This document shows, piece by piece, positions 42,565 through 62,842 of a stretch of DNA of 64,000 nt. Numbering within the stretch: the first letter of the stretch is position 1; the number at the start of each line of letters is the position of its first letter. The position numbers and the translations under genes are program-made. The stretch comes from Deltaproteobacteria bacterium (GTDB lineage: Bacteria; Desulfobacterota; Desulfuromonadia; Desulfuromonadales; Geopsychrobacteraceae): contig JAJRQI010000012.1 of the NCBI GenBank assembly GCA_024280335.1, forward strand, positions 1-64,000, written 5' to 3'. The notes below the pieces were generated by a model, which did not search any database, had not been told where the DNA came from, and saw nothing but the letters and a program-made list of their open reading frames with translations.

Positions 42565-42644
42565 TTTTCCTCCCACATGCTTTGACTCGGGTTACGAGGA
42601 GCCGAGAAAATAATTGGCAGTTTGCTACGCTTCTGCTTAGCATC

Positions 42645-42673
42645 TTTATAATAATTGTTTACGTAAACGTCAA
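42645..42673 (-). promoter_or_regulatory. Sigma-70 promoter of etfB with LiuR-like operator in the spacer
   Basis: On the minus strand TTGACG (42673-42668), 17-base spacer, TATAAA (42650-42645). The 17-base spacer holds TTTACGTAAAC, and the operator TTTACGTAAACGTCAA (plus strand 42658-42673) covers the -35 and half the spacer, as MerR-type operators do. Confidence 0.75.
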
Positions 42674-42686
42674 GATAATTTATAAC
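42658..42686 (+). promoter_or_regulatory. Divergent sigma-70 promoter of the MerR gene sharing the operator
   Basis: TTTACG (42658-42663), 17-base spacer, TATAAC (42681-42686) facing the MerR gene, about 50 bases from its start. The shared palindromic GTTTACGTAAAC core (42657-42668) suggests that the regulator controls both itself and etfBA. Confidence 0.65.
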
Positions 42687-42737
42687 GTTATTATGTACTC
42701 TTCTTCCGAAGAAAAACTTACCTACAAGGCTATTTTT

Positions 42738-43148
42738 ATGACAACGGCGACTGACAAGCCGGTGCAAATCGGCGAGCTGGCAAAAAAACTGGGAATTACC
42801 ACCCGAACCATCCGTTACTACGAGGAGATCGGTCTGATGGGATCGTCAGAACGGCAGGCGGGCGGCGCACGAATGTACAGTCGGGACGATATCCTGCGGC
42901 TTAAATTCATCCTGAAATTGAAGGAGTTGGGCATCTCGCTGAAAGAAATGCACGAGCTGGCGGAAAATTTTGACATCAATAACCAGAATTTCGGCCCGCT
43001 CACGCCGAAGTTGCTGGAAATTCTGGACCAGCACATCGGCAAGGTCGATCAGAAGATCGCTAACCTCTCCTCTCTGCGCAAAGAGATTGTTGCCTACCGC
43101 ACCCGGATCGACGATATCCTGCAGGGTCGTCAACCCTTGGTTAAATAG
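42738..43148 (+). CDS. MerR-family regulator, LiuR-like
   Basis: A 136-residue MerR protein. The helix-turn-helix reads 'VQIGELAKKLGITTRTIRYYEEIGLM', followed by wing 'GGARMYSRDDILRLKFILKLKELGISLKEMHEL' (in parts) and a C-terminal coiled coil ('LLEILDQHIGKVDQKIANLSSLRKEIVAY'), with no metal-binding cysteines. The pattern matches MerR members of the LiuR type, which regulate branched-chain amino acid and fatty acid oxidation in Proteobacteria. The frame is open upstream from 42582, but the ATG at 42738 with AAGG upstream begins the HTH normally. Targets are inferred from the shared operator. Confidence 0.85.
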   Translation: MTTATDKPVQIGELAKKLGITTRTIRYYEEIGLMGSSERQAGGARMYSRDDILRLKFILKLKELGISLKEMHELAENFDINNQNFGPLTPKLLEILDQHIGKVDQKIANLSSLRKEIVAYRTRIDDILQGRQPLVK

Positions 43149-53648: not shown

Positions 53649-56036
53649 TTAATTCCGCAGCGGTTTGCCTTTTTTCAGCATATGCTGGATCCGCTCGGCG
53701 GTCTTCTTGTTGCCGCAGAGTTTGAGGAACGCCTGACGTTCCAGCTGCAGCAGGTACTCCTCCGAAATCGGAGTGCCGGGGGTGACATCACCGCCGCAGA
53801 TGACATCGGCGATAATCCCGCCGACCTCTTTTTCATATTCGGTGACGTAACCACCCATCTGCATATTCCAGAGATTGGTCTTGATACTGGCAGCGATGCT
53901 GCGCCCCGGTGCCGGGATGTTCTCCAACGGTTTCTGCGGCCGATAATTGACCGCCAGGCCGAGCACCTTCTGTTTGGCATCAGCGATCAGTCGATCGAGA
54001 TCCATGCTGATGCTGTCACCGCGGCGCATGTAGTTCAGGCCGTACATTTCGGCGGCGCCCATGGAGACGGATGCCATACCGATCTGTTTGAAATGCTTGA
54101 AGATGAAGGGGGTCGGGTCCACCTCATACTGCTGGGCCAGCTCGACAGCGCGCAGGCACATCTCCTTGGTGCCGCCGCCCGCCGGAATCAGGCCGACGCC
54201 GATTTCGACCAGCCCCATGTAGGTTTCAGCGTAGGCGTTGATGGCATCGGCGTGCAGGGTAAATTCACAGCCACCGCCGAGGGTCATGCCGAAAGGCGCC
54301 GCGACCACCGGTACTTTTGCGTATTTGACGGCCATGGTGGCCTTCTGGAAAGCGCGCACCATCATGTCGATATCCTCATAGGCACCTTCGGCCAGCGCAA
54401 CCGCGAGCAGCATCAGGTTGGCCCCGACCGAAAAGTTGACCCCCTGATTGCCGATCACCAGTCCAACCCCTTCCGTTTCGGCCCGCTTGACCGCCTTGTG
54501 GGTCATCGAGAGGATATCGCCGCTGATCGAATTCATCTTTGAATGGAATTCGAAGCCGAACACCCCGTCACCCAGATCGACCAGCGAGCAATTGGCATTC
54601 TTCTCGACCAGCCCGCCCGATTTTTTCAGGATCTGCAGGTTGACCTGCCCGGCTTTGAGCGGGATGGAGCGGTATTCACCGCTCAGCAGGTCGAAGTACT
54701 CCTGTTGTCCGGCGGCGTTGAAGCGGTAGAAGCACTCGACATTTTTCAGTGCTTCGGGAACGGTCACGCCATCCTTCTCGGCGCGCTTGACGAATTTCGC
54801 CACACCGATCGCATCGAGCATTTCAAAGGGACCGATCTCCCAGTTGAAGCCCCACTTCATGGCATTATCGATATTGAGCACGTCGTCGGCAATCTCGGGA
54901 ATCCGTTTGACGGTGTAGATCAGCGTGTCGCGCAGAGTCTTCCAGGCATACTCGGCAGCCTTGTCCCGACCCTCGACGACCATTTTGACCTTCTGGGCCG
55001 GGTCGTCAACCAGTTTCACCGCAGCGATCGAGGCAAACTTCGGTTTCTCGACCGGCTTGAACTCGCCGCTGTTGTAGTCGAAATAGAGGATCTGCCGTTT
55101 GCCGTCGACCTGCTGTTTTTTGTAGAAGCCGGCCTTGCTTTTGTTGCCGAGCAGGCCGTTTTCGACCATTTTCTGCATAAACTGAGGAACCTTGAAGACT
55201 TCGCGCTCTTCATCTTCGGTCAGCTGCTCATAGGAGTTGTTGCCGACATGGATCAGGGTGTCGATGCCGACCAGATCTGCGGTACGGAATGCGGCCGATT
55301 TGGGACGCGCAGTCGCCGGGCCGGCGATGGCGTCAACCTCCTCGACGGTCATCCCCATCTCGAGCATGTGCTGCATTCCCTTGTAGATGGCGTAGACGCC
55401 GATCCGGTTGGCGATAAAGTTGGGGGTATCCTTGGCGTAGACGATCCCCTTGCCGAGCCGCCGACTGATAAATTCAGCCATGCCGGCCATCACTGCCGGG
55501 TCGGTCTCGTTGCAGGGGACAATTTCCAGCAGGCGCATGTAACGCGGCGGATTGAAAAAGTGGGTGACGATGAAGTTTTTGCGTACCTCAAGCGGCAGCG
55601 CCGCGGCCATCGCGTTGACTGACAGACCGCTGGTGTTGGTTGAAAGCACCGCCCCCGGTTTGAGATGCGGGACGAGCTTCTGAAACAGCTCCAGCTTGAT
55701 CGGCAGATGCTCGATGACCACCTCGACCACCCAGTCACAGTCTTTGAGCTTCGGTAGGTCGTCCTCGAAATTACCGACGCTGATCTGCTCTGCGTACTGC
55801 GGCAGATAGAAGGGGGCCGGTTTCATTTTCCGCAGCCCGGCCAGCCCGTCGGCGGCAATCCGGTTGCGGACCTGCGGACTCTCCAGGGTCAACCCTTCGG
55901 CCTGTTCTTTGTCACTCGGTTGCTTGGGGACGATGTCGAGCAACAGCACTTCGAGCCCGGCGTTCGCCAGATGCGCGGCGATGGTTGCGCCCATGACTCC
56001 GGCGCCAAGTACGGCGACACGATTGATTTGCCTCAT
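53649..56036 (-). CDS. fadN: 3-hydroxyacyl-CoA dehydrogenase/enoyl-CoA hydratase (FadN type)
   Basis: A 795-residue fusion with 3-hydroxyacyl-CoA dehydrogenase first and crotonase domain last, the order of Bacillus FadN (YusL, 789) rather than E. coli FadB. NAD motif 'VAVLGAGVMGATIAAHLANAG' at residues 8-28; active site 'VTHFFNPPRYMRLLEIVP' with its catalytic histidine. Crotonase part from about 505: 'GMTLGGGCEFTLHADAINAYAETYMGLVEIGVGLIPAGGG' (in parts). Carries out the hydration and oxidation steps. Start overlaps the ligase stop (ATGA). Confidence 0.95.
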   Translation of the reverse strand: MRQINRVAVLGAGVMGATIAAHLANAGLEVLLLDIVPKQPSDKEQAEGLTLESPQVRNRIAADGLAGLRKMKPAPFYLPQYAEQISVGNFEDDLPKLKDCDWVVEVVIEHLPIKLELFQKLVPHLKPGAVLSTNTSGLSVNAMAAALPLEVRKNFIVTHFFNPPRYMRLLEIVPCNETDPAVMAGMAEFISRRLGKGIVYAKDTPNFIANRIGVYAIYKGMQHMLEMGMTVEEVDAIAGPATARPKSAAFRTADLVGIDTLIHVGNNSYEQLTEDEEREVFKVPQFMQKMVENGLLGNKSKAGFYKKQQVDGKRQILYFDYNSGEFKPVEKPKFASIAAVKLVDDPAQKVKMVVEGRDKAAEYAWKTLRDTLIYTVKRIPEIADDVLNIDNAMKWGFNWEIGPFEMLDAIGVAKFVKRAEKDGVTVPEALKNVECFYRFNAAGQQEYFDLLSGEYRSIPLKAGQVNLQILKKSGGLVEKNANCSLVDLGDGVFGFEFHSKMNSISGDILSMTHKAVKRAETEGVGLVIGNQGVNFSVGANLMLLAVALAEGAYEDIDMMVRAFQKATMAVKYAKVPVVAAPFGMTLGGGCEFTLHADAINAYAETYMGLVEIGVGLIPAGGGTKEMCLRAVELAQQYEVDPTPFIFKHFKQIGMASVSMGAAEMYGLNYMRRGDSISMDLDRLIADAKQKVLGLAVNYRPQKPLENIPAPGRSIAASIKTNLWNMQMGGYVTEYEKEVGGIIADVICGGDVTPGTPISEEYLLQLERQAFLKLCGNKKTAERIQHMLKKGKPLRN

Positions 56037-57820
56037 TTCTCTCCTCCGTTTGCCAGATAAAGTTGTTCGATCTGGTCCTTGTAGATGGAATAGATCTGTT
56101 TGCGCTTCTGTTTCAGGGTCGGGGTCAGCTCGCCCCCTTCGATCGAAAACTCCCGCGGCAGCAGGGCAAACTTTTTGATCGTCTGATAGGGGGGCTGCGT
56201 CCGGTTGAACAGCTCGATCCGCTCACTGAACAGTTCCAGCACCCGCCGGTTGGCGACCAATTCCTCAACCGCCAGATAATTGAGTTTTTCCTGCTGCCCC
56301 AGTTCGATCAGCCGCTCCAGGTTGGGCGTCAGCAAGGCGACCAGATAGGGTTTGGCGTCGCCGTAGACGAATGCCTGAGAGATAAATTTATCGCGCTTCA
56401 GCTCGTTCTCCAGCGGCTGCGGGGCGATATTCTTGCCGCCGGCGGTGACGATGATCTCTTTTTTGCGGTCGACGATGGTAACGAACCCCTGCTGATCAAT
56501 CGTGGCGATATCGCCGGTCTTAAACCAGCCGTCGACGACCGCTTCGGCTGTCGCCGCGGCATCCTTATAATAGCCCTGCATCACCTGCGGTCCTTTGATC
56601 AGCAGTTCACCATCCTCGGCCAGCTTCAATTCGGTCTCTTCCAGCGCGGTGCCGACCGAACCGAAGCGGACCTGTTGCAGATTGTTCAGGGTGACTGCCG
56701 GGCTGGTCTCGGTCAGGCCGTAGCCTTCGAAAATCGGCAGACCGATGATCCACATGAATTCGATGATGGTTTTATCCAAGGGGGCACCGCCGGAGATGAA
56801 AAAGCGCAAACGGCCACCAAACTTTTCACGAATCTTGCTGAACACCAACCGGTCGTAAAAACGGTATTTAAACGCCAGCAGTCCGAGCGGCTGTTTATCG
56901 ATATAACGCTTCCGGACATATTCACGGCCGACCTCGATCGCTTGATGGAACAGCTTACGCTTCAACGGTGAACTGTGATGGACATTTTCATAAATTCTAG
57001 AATAGATTTTTTCAAACAGTCGCGGCACACTGACCATCGTCGTCGGCCTGATTTCGAGGATATTCTCGATCACCGTGTTAACGTTTTCGGCAAAGGCGAT
57101 GTGGTTACCGAGCATCAGCGCAATGTGGTAGCCTGCAGTACGCTCAAGAACGTGACTCAAAGGGAGAAAGCTGAGAAAAGTTTCGTCCCGTTTCATGCTG
57201 CCAAGGTGCTTATGACCTGCGACGGCATCAAACAGCAGGTTGGCCTGACTCAGCATCACTCCCTTGGGGTCACCGGTGGTTCCTGAAGTATAGATGATGG
57301 TTGCCAGACCTTCAGGCCGGATCGACTCAATAGTCTCCTCAAGCTGTTTTTTCTCCTCTGCCGTGAGTGGATGAGAGATCTCCGAAAGCTGGTAGAGGGT
57401 GTAGACCGGCAGGCTGCGATCACCGAGAAATCGATCAAAGGAGACGACCAGTCCCACCTGCGGGATCAGCTCACGTACGCCGAGCAGTTTTTCATACTGC
57501 AGGCGGCCAGAGACAAAGACGATTTTTGCCACACAGTGATTGATCACATAGGCCGCCTGTGCGCCGGTGTTGGTGGCGTAGATCGGCACACTGGTTCCAC
57601 CTGCCGACTGGATACCGAAATCAGCGATCGCCCAGCCGGCTCGATTTTCAGAGAATATCGCGACATTATCTCCCGACTCGAGTCCCGCTTTGAGCAGTCC
57701 GCGCGCCGCCATCAGCACCCGAGTGTAGAATTGCCGGTAGCTCAAGGTCAGATAGCTGCCGCTGCGCCGGTAACTGAGCGCCGCACTGTCGGCATGTTTC
57801 GCTGCGGACTGGCGCAGCAT
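56033..57820 (-). CDS. fadD: Long-chain acyl-CoA synthetase (FadD type), start uncertain
   Basis: 595 residues from ATG 57820. ANL superfamily: 'TIIYTSGTTGDPKGVMLS' (A3 phosphate loop), 'GYGLTETSPAVTLNN', 'GWFKTGDIATIDQQG', 'IVDRKKEIIVTAGGKNIAPQPLENELKRDKFI' (in parts). It activates long-chain fatty acids to acyl-CoA with AMP release. The ATG at 57820 has no ribosome-binding site. A better start (GGAGGAG then ATG at 57871) opens a frame whose 17th codon is TAG, immediately followed by the 57820 ATG (TAGATG). The 16 upstream residues ending 'YRSLP' look like the true N-terminus. So the gene is either amber-interrupted or re-initiates at 57820. It is the first gene of the fad operon. Confidence 0.93.
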   Translation of the reverse strand: MLRQSAAKHADSAALSYRRSGSYLTLSYRQFYTRVLMAARGLLKAGLESGDNVAIFSENRAGWAIADFGIQSAGGTSVPIYATNTGAQAAYVINHCVAKIVFVSGRLQYEKLLGVRELIPQVGLVVSFDRFLGDRSLPVYTLYQLSEISHPLTAEEKKQLEETIESIRPEGLATIIYTSGTTGDPKGVMLSQANLLFDAVAGHKHLGSMKRDETFLSFLPLSHVLERTAGYHIALMLGNHIAFAENVNTVIENILEIRPTTMVSVPRLFEKIYSRIYENVHHSSPLKRKLFHQAIEVGREYVRKRYIDKQPLGLLAFKYRFYDRLVFSKIREKFGGRLRFFISGGAPLDKTIIEFMWIIGLPIFEGYGLTETSPAVTLNNLQQVRFGSVGTALEETELKLAEDGELLIKGPQVMQGYYKDAAATAEAVVDGWFKTGDIATIDQQGFVTIVDRKKEIIVTAGGKNIAPQPLENELKRDKFISQAFVYGDAKPYLVALLTPNLERLIELGQQEKLNYLAVEELVANRRVLELFSERIELFNRTQPPYQTIKKFALLPREFSIEGGELTPTLKQKRKQIYSIYKDQIEQLYLANGGEK

Positions 57821-57871
57821 CTACGGCAGTGAGCGGTAGGGGAGCTGGTCGTTGCTCTGTTGGCTGGTCAT
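57821..57871 (-). other. Upstream part of the fadD gene ending in an in-frame TAG
   Basis: ATG 57871 follows GGGGGAGGAG (57881-57890), an excellent ribosome-binding site. The 16 codons (MTSQQSNDQLPYRSLP) run in the same frame into TAG (57823-57821) followed by ATG 57820. 'LPYRSLP*MLRQSAAKHADSAALSYR' (shown in parts) reads naturally across the stop, as homologous ligases start with a Leu-Pro-X-Met/Leu-Leu-Arg-type helix. One C to T change from CAG (Gln) would make the TAG. Confidence 0.7.
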
Positions 57872-57991: not shown

Positions 57992-58020
57992 GTTATATCG
58001 TCCCTTTACGTTCACGTCAA
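57992..58020 (-). promoter_or_regulatory. First promoter of the fad operon with LiuR-like operator
   Basis: Minus strand TTGACG (58020-58015), 17-base spacer, TATAAC (57997-57992). The operator TTTACGTTCACGTCAA (58005-58020, plus strand) covers -35 and spacer. It is the same arrangement as in the etfB promoter, differing at only two of 16 bases. Confidence 0.75.
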
Positions 58021-58021
58021 C

Positions 58022-58048
58022 ACAAAATAGAAAAAGGTTCTATTTTGT
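58022..58048 (-). terminator. Perfect 11-bp hairpin at the end of the MMPL gene
   Basis: ACAAAATAGAA (58022-58032) pairs perfectly with TTCTATTTTGT (58038-58048) around AAAGG, overlapping the stop codon of the MMPL gene. The stem is AT-rich and there is no U-run; it may mark the transcript end and separates the envelope cluster from the fad promoter, which starts 2 bases away. Confidence 0.45.
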
Positions 58049-60403
58049 ATTGACGTTTTCAGTGACTCCCGGAATCAGCTTGTTTCCCCGGCTTTTCGGC
58101 AGTAGAAAGCAGGCCAATGCCGGCAGCAGCAGAATCGCGCCGAGCATGTTCACCAGAAACATGAAGGTCAACAGAATGCCCATATCGGCCTGAAACTTGA
58201 GGGGTGAGAAAATCCAGGTCGCTACCCCGATCGCCAGGGTAACGCCGGTAAAAACCACCCCGTTGCCGGTGATAGCCAAGGTATGCAGATAGGCCTGCTG
58301 CAAGGTTTGGCCTTCTTTCATGTAGTGGCGCAAGCGGCTGAAAATGTAGATGCCATAGTCGACACCGACCCCGACCCCCAGCGCCACCACCGGCAGGGTG
58401 GAGACTTTCAGACCGATCTGCAGAATACTCATCAGCGCGTAGGCCAGCAGAGAAACCAGACCGAGCGGAAGAATGATACAGAGGACCGCGCGCGGGGAGC
58501 GGAACTCATACAGACAGAGCAGTATCACCGCGCCGAAAACATAAAGCAGAATCGGGAATTGCGCAGCGGAGACCTCTTCATTGGTTGCCGCCATCACCCC
58601 GACATTGCCGGTTGCCAGTCGGAATTTAATATTTTCACTTCGATGGGTATCCCGATAGCTTTTCACTTCGGAAATAATACTGGCGATGGTTTCCGCCTTG
58701 TGATCCTTGGTGAAGATCATCACCGGCATGACGCTGCAATCGGAGTTCAATAGCCCGCTGCTGGTTGGAACGTAGCCGACCGCCTGCACCATGGTTGACT
58801 GGTTGCGCGGCAGCACCCGCCACTTCAGGCTGCCTTCATTCCAGCCGGAATTGATCACCTTGGCGATACCGGGCAGGCCGATAACCGACTGTACGCCGGC
58901 AACATTGTTCATGTGCCAGGCAAAGCGGTCGATGGCGGTCATGATATCGTAATCGATACAGCCATCCGGCTTGGTTTCAACAATCACCGTGATAATGTCT
59001 ACGCCGATAGAGAAATGTTCAGTAATAACGGCACTGTCCAGGTTGTACCGAGAATCGGCGCGCAGCTCGGGAACCCCGCGATGCATGTCGCCGATCTTGA
59101 TATCGGAGCCTTTCCAGAGGCCGAAGCCGAGCAGGACAACCGCTGCAGCAAGGATAATAACGGCAGATTTCGGTTCAGCGGCCCGTTCAAAGAAACGCCA
59201 GACCGGTCGCAGGATTTTGGTTTGCTCATCAACCCGCCGCTGGTAACGACGGCCGGTTTTTACGTAAGAGAGCAGGATCGGCAACAGAATCAGGTTGGTC
59301 AGAATAATCACTGCGACCCCCAGGCTGGCGGTGATCGCCATCTCCTGAATGACGCGAATTTCGATCAGCTGGATGGTGACAAAACCGATGGTGTCACTGG
59401 CCAGGGCGATAAAACCGGGGATCAGCAGCTGCCGGAAACTTGACTTGGCCGCTGCCAGTCGATCCGCTCCGGCACGGACTTCAGCGGTGTTGGCGGTGAT
59501 CATCTGTACCGCATGGCTGACGCCGATGGCAAAGATCAGAAAGGGGACCAGCAGGCCCATCGGATCGATCCCGTAACCGAGCAGCGGCAGCAAACCGAGT
59601 TGCCAGATGACGGCAATCAACGAACAACCGATCGGAATCAGACTGAGGATCACGGAACGGGTGTAGAGAAAGACCAGCAGCGTGGTAATCAGGAAGGCGA
59701 CAAAGAAAAACAGGATGACTCGTTTGGCACCGTCGGCGATATCGCCGATGACCTTGGCAAAGCCGATGATGTGAACATCGACCTGATCCCCCTGGTATTT
59801 GTCGCGGATCCGCTCCTCCAGCAGGTGCGAAACCTTGATAAAATCGAGTTTTTCACCGCTGCTCGGATCGATCTCCAGCAGTTGGACACTGATCACCGCC
59901 CCGGTGAAATCATTGGCCACCAGTCGGCCGAGGATTCCGGCTTTGAGGATATTCTTACGGACCTTCTCCAACCCTTCCGGGGTCGGTTGAAAGTCTGCCG
60001 GTACGACATTGCCTCCGGCAATACCATCTTCGACCACCTCGGTAAAGCGGACATTGGGGGTAAACAGCGAGGTGACTTGAGCTCGATCGACGCCGGGGAT
60101 AAAGAACACATCGTCGGTAGCTTTTTGCAGCGTGTCAAAAAATTCCGCGGTGAAAATATCGCCCTGTTTTGCCATCAAGGCAATCAGCACCCGGTTGGCA
60201 CCGCCGAATTCCTTCCGGTGTTCAACATAGGTCTGCATATACTCATGCTTGAGCGGCAGCAGTTTGCTGAACCCCGCATCGATCCGCAGGTTACTGACAG
60301 AGTAGGCCATGAACAAGGTCATCAGCACAAAAAAGCTCAGGAATATCCGTCGGTTATTAAAAATGAGCGTTTCTAGTCCGGCGATGAGTGAATTGATTCT
60401 CAT
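58040..60403 (-). CDS. MMPL/RND-family lipid transporter
   Basis: A 787-residue RND-superfamily protein with two MMPL halves, about 12 TM helices. TM1 (about 18-38) is followed by an extracytoplasmic domain (about 40-210), a TM group (about 215-375), a second domain (about 435-600) and a final TM group (about 605-775). 'IFAIGVSHAVQMI' and 'VALGVGVGVDYGIYIFSRLRHYMKEGQTLQQAY' (in parts) are the TM4/TM10 signatures with the charged residue used for proton coupling. It probably moves lipids or hydrophobic metabolites through the envelope. Neighbours are YCF48-like, DUF1329 and DUF1302 genes upstream in the same direction. Confidence 0.9.
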   Translation of the reverse strand: MRINSLIAGLETLIFNNRRIFLSFFVLMTLFMAYSVSNLRIDAGFSKLLPLKHEYMQTYVEHRKEFGGANRVLIALMAKQGDIFTAEFFDTLQKATDDVFFIPGVDRAQVTSLFTPNVRFTEVVEDGIAGGNVVPADFQPTPEGLEKVRKNILKAGILGRLVANDFTGAVISVQLLEIDPSSGEKLDFIKVSHLLEERIRDKYQGDQVDVHIIGFAKVIGDIADGAKRVILFFFVAFLITTLLVFLYTRSVILSLIPIGCSLIAVIWQLGLLPLLGYGIDPMGLLVPFLIFAIGVSHAVQMITANTAEVRAGADRLAAAKSSFRQLLIPGFIALASDTIGFVTIQLIEIRVIQEMAITASLGVAVIILTNLILLPILLSYVKTGRRYQRRVDEQTKILRPVWRFFERAAEPKSAVIILAAAVVLLGFGLWKGSDIKIGDMHRGVPELRADSRYNLDSAVITEHFSIGVDIITVIVETKPDGCIDYDIMTAIDRFAWHMNNVAGVQSVIGLPGIAKVINSGWNEGSLKWRVLPRNQSTMVQAVGYVPTSSGLLNSDCSVMPVMIFTKDHKAETIASIISEVKSYRDTHRSENIKFRLATGNVGVMAATNEEVSAAQFPILLYVFGAVILLCLYEFRSPRAVLCIILPLGLVSLLAYALMSILQIGLKVSTLPVVALGVGVGVDYGIYIFSRLRHYMKEGQTLQQAYLHTLAITGNGVVFTGVTLAIGVATWIFSPLKFQADMGILLTFMFLVNMLGAILLLPALACFLLPKSRGNKLIPGVTENVNTK

Positions 60404-60424
60404 GGAAAGCTCCTGCAGCCCTGC

Positions 60425-61399
60425 TTAATTCTGTGGGGACGACTTGGTTAGTGAAAGGGTTGCAACACCGAAGTCGCCCACGGCGACGATCTTGCCATCC
60501 ACTGATTGCAGCAGGCTGCTGAAGCCTTTGCGATCGGGATCCTGTTGCAGATTGAAGCTGTAGCCGCCATCCTGACTGATCAGCAGTGCCCCGGCCAGAC
60601 CGGCAATCAGCAGGGTGCCGTCCGCTAAACGCAAGCCGTCGGTCAGACTCGCTTCCGTACCCGTATCGATCTGCCGCCAGGTTTCACCGGCATTGTCGGA
60701 ACGGAATAGATTGCCGCGCAGCCCGAACAGCAGCAGACTCTTCTCAGCTAACGGCAAAATACCGAAAAATGACCCCTCATAATCGGGTGACAGTGCGCGC
60801 CATTTTTTCCCACCGTCAGCAGAGCGGTAGACAACCCCGGCCTCAGCGGCGATAAACAGCTGCTCGCCGACCGCGACAATCTGGTTCAGGTGAAAATCAT
60901 CTTCACTGATCCAGCGCCCTTGCCAACTGCTGCCGGAATCAAAAGATTCCAGAAACTGACCATAGGCGCCGATGGCATAGCCATGTTCGGCATCCAGAAA
61001 AAAAACATCCAGTAACGGACTTTCGGCTTCAGGGTTCTCATAAACAAGATCCCAGCTTAGACCGCCATCCCGGGTGCGGAGAATAACCTGGTCATGGCCG
61101 ACCACCCAACCATTCTGACGATCGATGAAGTAGACCCCGGTCAGGGTTGCCCGCGTCGGCACCTGGGCCTGACTCCAGCTGCTGCCGCTATCCTCACTGA
61201 TCAGAATATGGCCGCGCGCACCGACGGCGATCAGGGCATCCCCGACCCGCTGGACATCAAGCAACAACGAACGGCTGGCCAGGGGTGCGATCACCGAGAC
61301 TTCACTGCCGACGGCTGGAGCAGCAAGACAGAGAAGACCCAGCAGAAACACGATGACAAGTGACTTAAAAGGGTCTTTTTTTAGAAAATAGTCATTCAT
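60425..61399 (-). CDS. YCF48/BNR-repeat beta-propeller protein, exported
   Basis: A 324-residue protein with an N-terminal signal segment ('SLVIVFLLGLLCLAAPAVGS', ending about residue 33) and seven or so BNR/YCF48-type repeats: 'DSGSSWSQ', 'DGGLSWDL', 'DSGSSWQG', 'DGGKKWRA', 'NAGETWRQ' and 'DGGYSFNL'. Beta-propeller, probably periplasmic, often encoded next to MMPL transporters and DUF1329/DUF1302 proteins. A start at 61426 would sit in the T-run of an upstream terminator, so I chose ATG 61399. Confidence 0.85.
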   Translation of the reverse strand: MNDYFLKKDPFKSLVIVFLLGLLCLAAPAVGSEVSVIAPLASRSLLLDVQRVGDALIAVGARGHILISEDSGSSWSQAQVPTRATLTGVYFIDRQNGWVVGHDQVILRTRDGGLSWDLVYENPEAESPLLDVFFLDAEHGYAIGAYGQFLESFDSGSSWQGRWISEDDFHLNQIVAVGEQLFIAAEAGVVYRSADGGKKWRALSPDYEGSFFGILPLAEKSLLLFGLRGNLFRSDNAGETWRQIDTGTEASLTDGLRLADGTLLIAGLAGALLISQDGGYSFNLQQDPDRKGFSSLLQSVDGKIVAVGDFGVATLSLTKSSPQN

Positions 61400-61426
61400 A
61401 TTCAGCCATCTTATGGTTGTAGGCAT

Positions 61427-61459
61427 AAAAACGGCCGAGCCGCTGCCGGCCCGGCCGTT
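61427..61459 (-). terminator. Intrinsic terminator between DUF1329 and YCF48 genes
   Basis: On the minus strand AACGGCCG (61459-61452) pairs with CGGCCGTT (61437-61430) around a 14-base loop that can form an additional GCCGGC stem, followed by TTTTT. Because the genes on both sides point the same way, this probably reduces expression of YCF48 and MMPL relative to DUF1329/DUF1302. Confidence 0.75.
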
Positions 61460-61480
61460 GGGTTCAGCAGAGACAATCAG

Positions 61481-62842
61481 TTAACGACGACCAGCCCGGC
61501 GCAGAGCACCCGGTGAAAAATCCTTGTCGGTACGTTTGATACTGAAATCGTACATCGATGACTCATTGTCGAGGCCCAGGGCCAGATAACGTCCGGACTG
61601 CAGGTCGTAGTGGGTTTCCAGGGTGGTCCAGAAGGTCGGCACTTCATAGTAGTTAATGGAGTGACCTTCGGAAACGCGCCAGAGCTGATCGCGGTTGTCA
61701 TAAATATCTGCCGCCATGATCTGCCAGGAATCCTCATCGATATAGAAGGTCCGCTTCTTGTACAGATGACGGGCACCTTCGCGCAGGGTGGCTTCGACAA
61801 CCCAGACACGGTGCAGTTCGTAACGCAGATAATCGGGGTTGAGGTGCAGCGGGGTCAGAATATCTTTGTACTTCAGCTTGTCACTGTGCAGCAGGTAACT
61901 GTTGTAAGGGATGTACATCTCTTTTTTACCGACCAGTTTCCAGTCATAGCGATCTGTAGCGCCATTGAACATATCAAACTGGTCGGAGGTGCGCAGGCTG
62001 TCAGCGGCGGTGCCCGGATTGTCGTAAGCGACATTCGGCGCGCGCCGGACCCGGCGTTGACCCGGATTGTAAACCCAGGCGGCACGGAGTTCTTTGACCT
62101 GATTGAGGGTTTCGTGCACCAGCAGAACATTACCGGCCAGCCGCGCCGGAGAAGTAACCTCTTGGCGGAACAGCAGAATCCGGTTCTTCAACTTTTCTTC
62201 GGTCATGCCTGGCTGGGAATAGATCAGGCTGAATTCATCCTTGAACTTGACCAGGGTGTAATCGCCGCCGCGGGTCATCGGCGCTTGAGCAATTTTGCGT
62301 GAGGCCGTGTCACCACGGTAGCGAAGCATGTGGTTCCAGAGAACTTCAATGCCGCTCTTGGGGATCGGAAAGGGAATCCCGTTGACCGTTCCGCGCACAC
62401 CATCACCGTTATTGACCAGCTCGGCGGTCTGCGCCACCTGTTTGGTCATATCGTAGATCCGCTGCGGTGAGGAGGCACTGCGGTGGGTCGGATAGATGTT
62501 CATTTTGAAGCTGTCATAGGTCTTGAGCAGCGCCTGGTAGCCGGGGGTCAATTTATCCTTGTACTGGTCCATGTTGGCCGCAGTGATGGTGACCTGAATC
62601 TTGTCCGCTGCGTAGGGATCGGGATGGTGCATCCCCTTTTTATAGCCGGCTGGAGGAGTGGTGATACCGCCGTCCCAGACCGGGATGCTGCCGTCAGCGT
62701 TGCCGGCTTTTTCAGCCCCGACCGGTGTCAGATCCTTGCCCAGCCGGGCGGCTTCATCGGCAGAAATAGCAGAAAAAGACTGCCCCGCCAGGCCCGTTAC
62801 CAGCAGGATGGCAATTGTCCAAGTTAATGCGTTTTTCAGCAT
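61481..62842 (-). CDS. DUF1329 family protein (LolA-like fold)
   Basis: A 453-residue exported protein with signal peptide ending 'GLAGQSFSA' (about 1-26). DUF1329 motifs: 'RLGKDLTPVGAEKAGNADGSIPVWDGG', 'YPTHRSASSPQRIYDMTKQ', 'GVRGTVNGIPFPIPKSGIEVLWNH' (in parts), 'RRVRRAPNVAYDNPGT', 'DRYDWKLVGKKEMYIPYNSY', 'YELHRVWVVEATLREGARHLYKKRTFYIDEDSW' (in parts). The family has the LolA-like beta-sheet fold and is thought to carry lipids in the periplasm, usually beside a DUF1302 outer membrane protein. GGGAG precedes the ATG. Confidence 0.9.
   Translation of the reverse strand: MLKNALTWTIAILLVTGLAGQSFSAISADEAARLGKDLTPVGAEKAGNADGSIPVWDGGITTPPAGYKKGMHHPDPYAADKIQVTITAANMDQYKDKLTPGYQALLKTYDSFKMNIYPTHRSASSPQRIYDMTKQVAQTAELVNNGDGVRGTVNGIPFPIPKSGIEVLWNHMLRYRGDTASRKIAQAPMTRGGDYTLVKFKDEFSLIYSQPGMTEEKLKNRILLFRQEVTSPARLAGNVLLVHETLNQVKELRAAWVYNPGQRRVRRAPNVAYDNPGTAADSLRTSDQFDMFNGATDRYDWKLVGKKEMYIPYNSYLLHSDKLKYKDILTPLHLNPDYLRYELHRVWVVEATLREGARHLYKKRTFYIDEDSWQIMAADIYDNRDQLWRVSEGHSINYYEVPTFWTTLETHYDLQSGRYLALGLDNESSMYDFSIKRTDKDFSPGALRRAGRR

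Follow-up and report, generated by a model that had tools for sequence, protein, structure and literature searches.

The ligase locus

The ligase gene heads a cluster (ligase-FadB-thiolase-acyl-CoA dehydrogenase) and lies on the minus strand of the window, i.e. the whole stretch of 64,000 nucleotides that was analysed. The next gene of the operon (53649-56036, minus strand) encodes a FadB-type 3-hydroxyacyl-CoA dehydrogenase/enoyl-CoA hydratase with the Pfam domains 3HCDH_N, 3HCDH and ECH_1. It overlaps the ligase stop by 4 bases, and the best NCBIfam match of its product, Staph_FadB, was below the cut-off.

Reading the minus strand from 57890 to 57818, the stretch gggggaggag and the nine nucleotides acagagaca are followed by ATG, the other codons of a 16-codon segment (acc agc caa cag agc aac gac cag ctc ccc tac cgc tca ctg ccg), TAG and a second ATG. 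The Shine-Dalgarno-like GGAGGAG (57887-57881) is thus spaced 9 nt from the first ATG (57871-57869). The segment (57871-57824) encodes MTSQQSNDQLPYRSLP and is severed from the remainder of the gene by the in-frame TAG (57823-57821). The frame translates as MTSQQSNDQLPYRSLP*MLRQSAAKHAD and onwards, being continuous with a 595-codon ligase ORF (57820-56033) that opens at the second ATG (57820-57818). No stretch resembling a ribosome-binding site was found before this ATG, where the sequence is CTCACTGCCGTAG. The residues LPYRSLP before the stop agree with the conserved ligase N-terminus, and therefore the TAG sits within a genuine coding region. A preliminary description of this DNA had reported the GGAGGAG and ATG opening an in-phase frame, the TAG and the following ATG without ribosome-binding site, and had considered the residues before the stop a normal ligase N-terminus; direct reading confirmed the former, and the match of LPYRSLP with the conserved start of the orthologues the latter.

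The frame beyond the TAG is intact. The PF00501 (268.9 bits) and PF23562 (AMP-binding_C_3, 43.5 bits) domains are both complete and lie entirely 3' of Met 57820, and the motifs YTSGTTG and YGLTE were found, as it is expected for an AMP-forming acyl-CoA ligase. No specific NCBIfam family was assigned to the ligase at the cut-off, the best match being FadD11 with 353 of 950 bits. Other AMP-binding ligases are present in the genome, the best of them 43% identical to this one, and they might compensate for its loss.

Two promoter-like sites precede the gene on the minus strand. The proximal one (TTGACG-16-TATGAT, 57921-57894) and the distal one (TTGACG-17-TATAAC, 58020-57992) each overlap a copy of the 16-bp operator-like motif TTGACGTNAACGTAAA, located at 57921-57906 and 58020-58005, respectively. 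This motif was found upstream of 42 of the 45 orthologues (up to 2 mismatches, within 350 bases). In the window it gave 5 matches (three sites, two of them matched on both strands) against 0.3 by chance; the sole further site, at 42658-42673, lies 5' of a MerR-family regulator gene, with a divergent ETF gene opposite. When a stricter exact pattern was used, only two matches remained genome-wide, each of them upstream of the ligase. The conserved control of the fad operon thus looks transcriptional, and the distribution of the motif points to a candidate MerR-type fatty-acid regulon with autoregulation. Since the long call would include the operator-like site, the MerR-family ORF (42582-43148), called from TTG 42582, probably begins further in, at ATG 42693 or 42738.

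An inverted repeat (58014-58056, 84% over 43 bases) covers the end of a gene for an MMPL-family transporter as well as sequence upstream of the ligase operon, and is possibly a terminator. Genes for this transporter, a YCF48-like protein and a DUF1329 protein stand in a row (58040-62842) on the same strand, directly upstream of the fad operon; they possibly form a lipid export or uptake set.

Codon 17 and the N-terminus in relatives

The search for the ligase covered the 40 nearest genomes, 44 of the family, 136 of the order and named GTDB genomes, among which no second genome of the species under study was found. The codon aligned to the TAG was read directly in 51 homologues, in two sets of 42 and 9. 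It was not a stop in any of the 51, of which six are paralogous or distant and two (L045 and L169) are probably one genome counted twice. CAG-ATG was found in all the nearest orthologues, namely those of G007, a member of the same genus and the closest relative (84% protein identity), G014, which is Pelovirga terrestris (78%), G021 (78%) and G059 (74%). More distant orthologues carry CAG, CAA, GAA, GCN, GGN, CAC or other sense codons at this position. A TAA flagged in a paralogue of the genome under study (G000:C57) was found to be the ordinary end of that paralogue.

The start codon lies 8-17 codons 5' of the Met equivalent to 57820 in all orthologues, which share a common LPY-S-P-x-M-L start and whose starts align with the ATG at 57871. 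S14 and P16 do not vary across an alignment of 25 proteins, and M18 is nearly invariant. The stop-to-stop frame measures 595 codons in the genome under study, versus 611-705 in all other strong matches that are not cut by a contig end. Since every orthologue starts 8-17 codons further 5', ATG 57820 is, as judged from the alignment, an old and nearly invariant internal methionine and not a start; its position directly after the TAG is unremarkable, as it codes for a methionine conserved in nearly all relatives.

In order to evaluate the rest of the gene, its substitutions were compared with those of the relatives. Fifteen private residue changes were counted against the outgroup consensus, versus 22 in G007, and none of the 158 sites that are invariant in the other orthologues was changed. 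The NG86 estimates between the ligases of both genomes were dN 0.10 and dS 0.87. No sign of decay beyond the TAG was thus detected by any of these measures, and the substitution pattern indicates that the frame after it is under purifying selection. An intact remainder means either that the change is recent, or that it is a base error, or that the shortened product retains a use.

For the read-through protein, an AlphaFold2 model (mean pLDDT 84) was used because the PDB sequence matches were too distant for judging the N-terminus. Residues 1-8 were modelled as disordered and residues 11-20 as confidently folded, the first helix comprising residues 15-25 and hence codon 17. According to the model, a protein restarted at Met 57820 would be missing the disordered tail and the opening turn of the helix, together with both invariant residues (S14 and P16), while its catalytic core would be whole.

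Origin and consequences of the TAG

The codon column of the relatives argues that the TAG is quite probably a lineage-specific amber nonsense mutation, consisting of one C-to-T change confined to this genome. Its orthologues have a sense codon one base away, and the stop lies within a conserved protein, as it is expected for a nonsense mutation. The preliminary description had named a CAG-to-TAG mutation or an error among its possibilities, to be recognized by CAG in relatives, and CAG is what they carry at exactly codon 17. It had also regarded homologues starting at the 57820 Met as fatal to the observation; no orthologue begins there, and the observation holds.

The ancestral ligase would have started at ATG 57871 with CAG (Gln) as codon 17, which a single C-to-T change would have converted to TAG. 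Ribosomes loaded at the strong GGAGGAG site would then halt after 16 codons, yielding a 16-residue peptide. The codon after the TAG being the conserved internal ATG, a fraction of the ribosomes may resume translation at it and produce a 595-residue ligase without the first 17 residues, at a lower level and perhaps of lower quality; without restart, the gene would be a fresh null. A real base at codon 17, CAG in the ancestor and any re-initiation at all are what we infer: no relative shares more than 84% of the protein sequence, so that CAG in the species' own ancestor is deduced rather than observed.

A base-call or assembly error, in which case the organism truly has CAG and a normal ligase gene, would agree with the CAG of the relatives, one base away from TAG, with a ligase that is otherwise wholly intact and with a draft assembly of 72 contigs. 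This explanation is nevertheless rather unlikely, the assembly giving no sign of low quality (99.5% complete, 0.45% contamination) and showing no further broken genes confirmed by homology in the contig stretch examined. The preliminary description had also considered a 16-residue leader with re-initiation at TAGATG that tunes the first gene of the fad operon. As a selected trait, such a leader would make ribosomes halt at the TAG and re-initiate at ATG 57820, which would determine how much ligase is made and how strongly the fad operon is expressed. The direct contact of TAG and ATG is geometrically compatible with termination-re-initiation (PMC6728339), and the frame downstream is intact. 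However, the proposal did not survive the comparison with relatives: none of those examined has the stop, possesses a leader ORF or begins translation at the 57820 Met; the supposed leader is in fact the conserved enzyme N-terminus with the invariant S14 and P16. Moreover, ATG 57820 has no ribosome-binding site, and a predicted hairpin begins directly after it (z -2.3 for the 61-base stretch). In bacteria, translation is documented to resume at a Met close to a stop inside an ORF; of five E. coli gene pairs tested, three lost 60-90% of their re-initiation when the ribosome-binding site was removed, and one lost it altogether (PMC6728339). A restart at ATG 57820, if any, should therefore be weak, given the hairpin and the missing ribosome-binding site, and may still happen as an accident of the mutation. 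An evolved leader is thus very unlikely. It is likewise highly improbable that the species kept the amber codon for a lower, tuned dose of shortened ligase from the TAG-ATG restart with the downstream fad genes fully expressed.

Read-through of the UAG as an amino acid, by a suppressor tRNA, pyrrolysine or recoding, would give the full 612-residue enzyme and would explain the good ligase sequence on either side of the TAG. This possibility, also raised beforehand, found no support in the decoding apparatus, and its probability is close to negligible. None of the 43 tRNA matches of the genome has a CUA anticodon; the tRNA model could overlook an atypical tRNA-Pyl, which is unlikely to matter without PylS. 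The best match to pyrrolysyl-tRNA synthetase (PylS) in the genome scored 20.6 bits against a cut-off of 178 bits, and similarly weak matches occur in most control genomes. Release factor 1, on the other hand, was found above the cut-off. TAG is not avoided as a stop either: it ends 12 of the 62 genes predicted in an 84-kb contig stretch and, at the sites inspected, divides distinct complete proteins (for instance DUF444/SpoVR and MerR/thioesterase). A statistical coding scan did not discriminate by itself: it ranked the ligase TAG 30th of 640. Other coding-like in-frame TAGs with family matches were real gene ends (an ETF gene, DUF444 before SpoVR and MerR before thioesterase), and the remaining ones in the contig stretch lay in antisense or unassigned frames.

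The feature is real yet ordinary, namely an amber codon that is derived and confined to one genome, or else an erroneous base. Its main value is one of caution, as a stop beside a conserved internal Met mimics a designed stop-start signal, and the comparison with relatives reveals a single base change. Gene callers will place the ligase start at Met 57820 and so conceal the damage. Provided that the TAG is genuine, the organism may have a beta-oxidation operon with a weakened ligase, perhaps with the other ligases of the genome as backup.

Comparison with known systems

The gene resembles other fatty acid-CoA ligases with PF00501 and PF23562 in its full-length domains, their very significant scores and its place at the head of the cluster. 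It differs in having no specific NCBIfam family at the cut-off and in its first 17 codons, which are severed by the TAG. With termination-re-initiation at overlapping gene pairs (TGATG, ATGA) the locus shares the immediate contact of stop and start codons. Unlike in those pairs, what precedes the restart codon is a piece of the very protein that follows; there is no intragenic ribosome-binding site, and the arrangement is not conserved.

A further parallel is given by early bacterial nonsense mutations with restart at a nearby internal Met, such as the early lacI amber mutants. In comparison with these and with the experiments on ORF-internal stops cited in PMC6728339, the stop in the ligase is natural and occurs in one genome, and re-initiation is only putative. 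Both have in common a stop near the 5' end, an in-frame Met close to it and the possibility of a truncated product.
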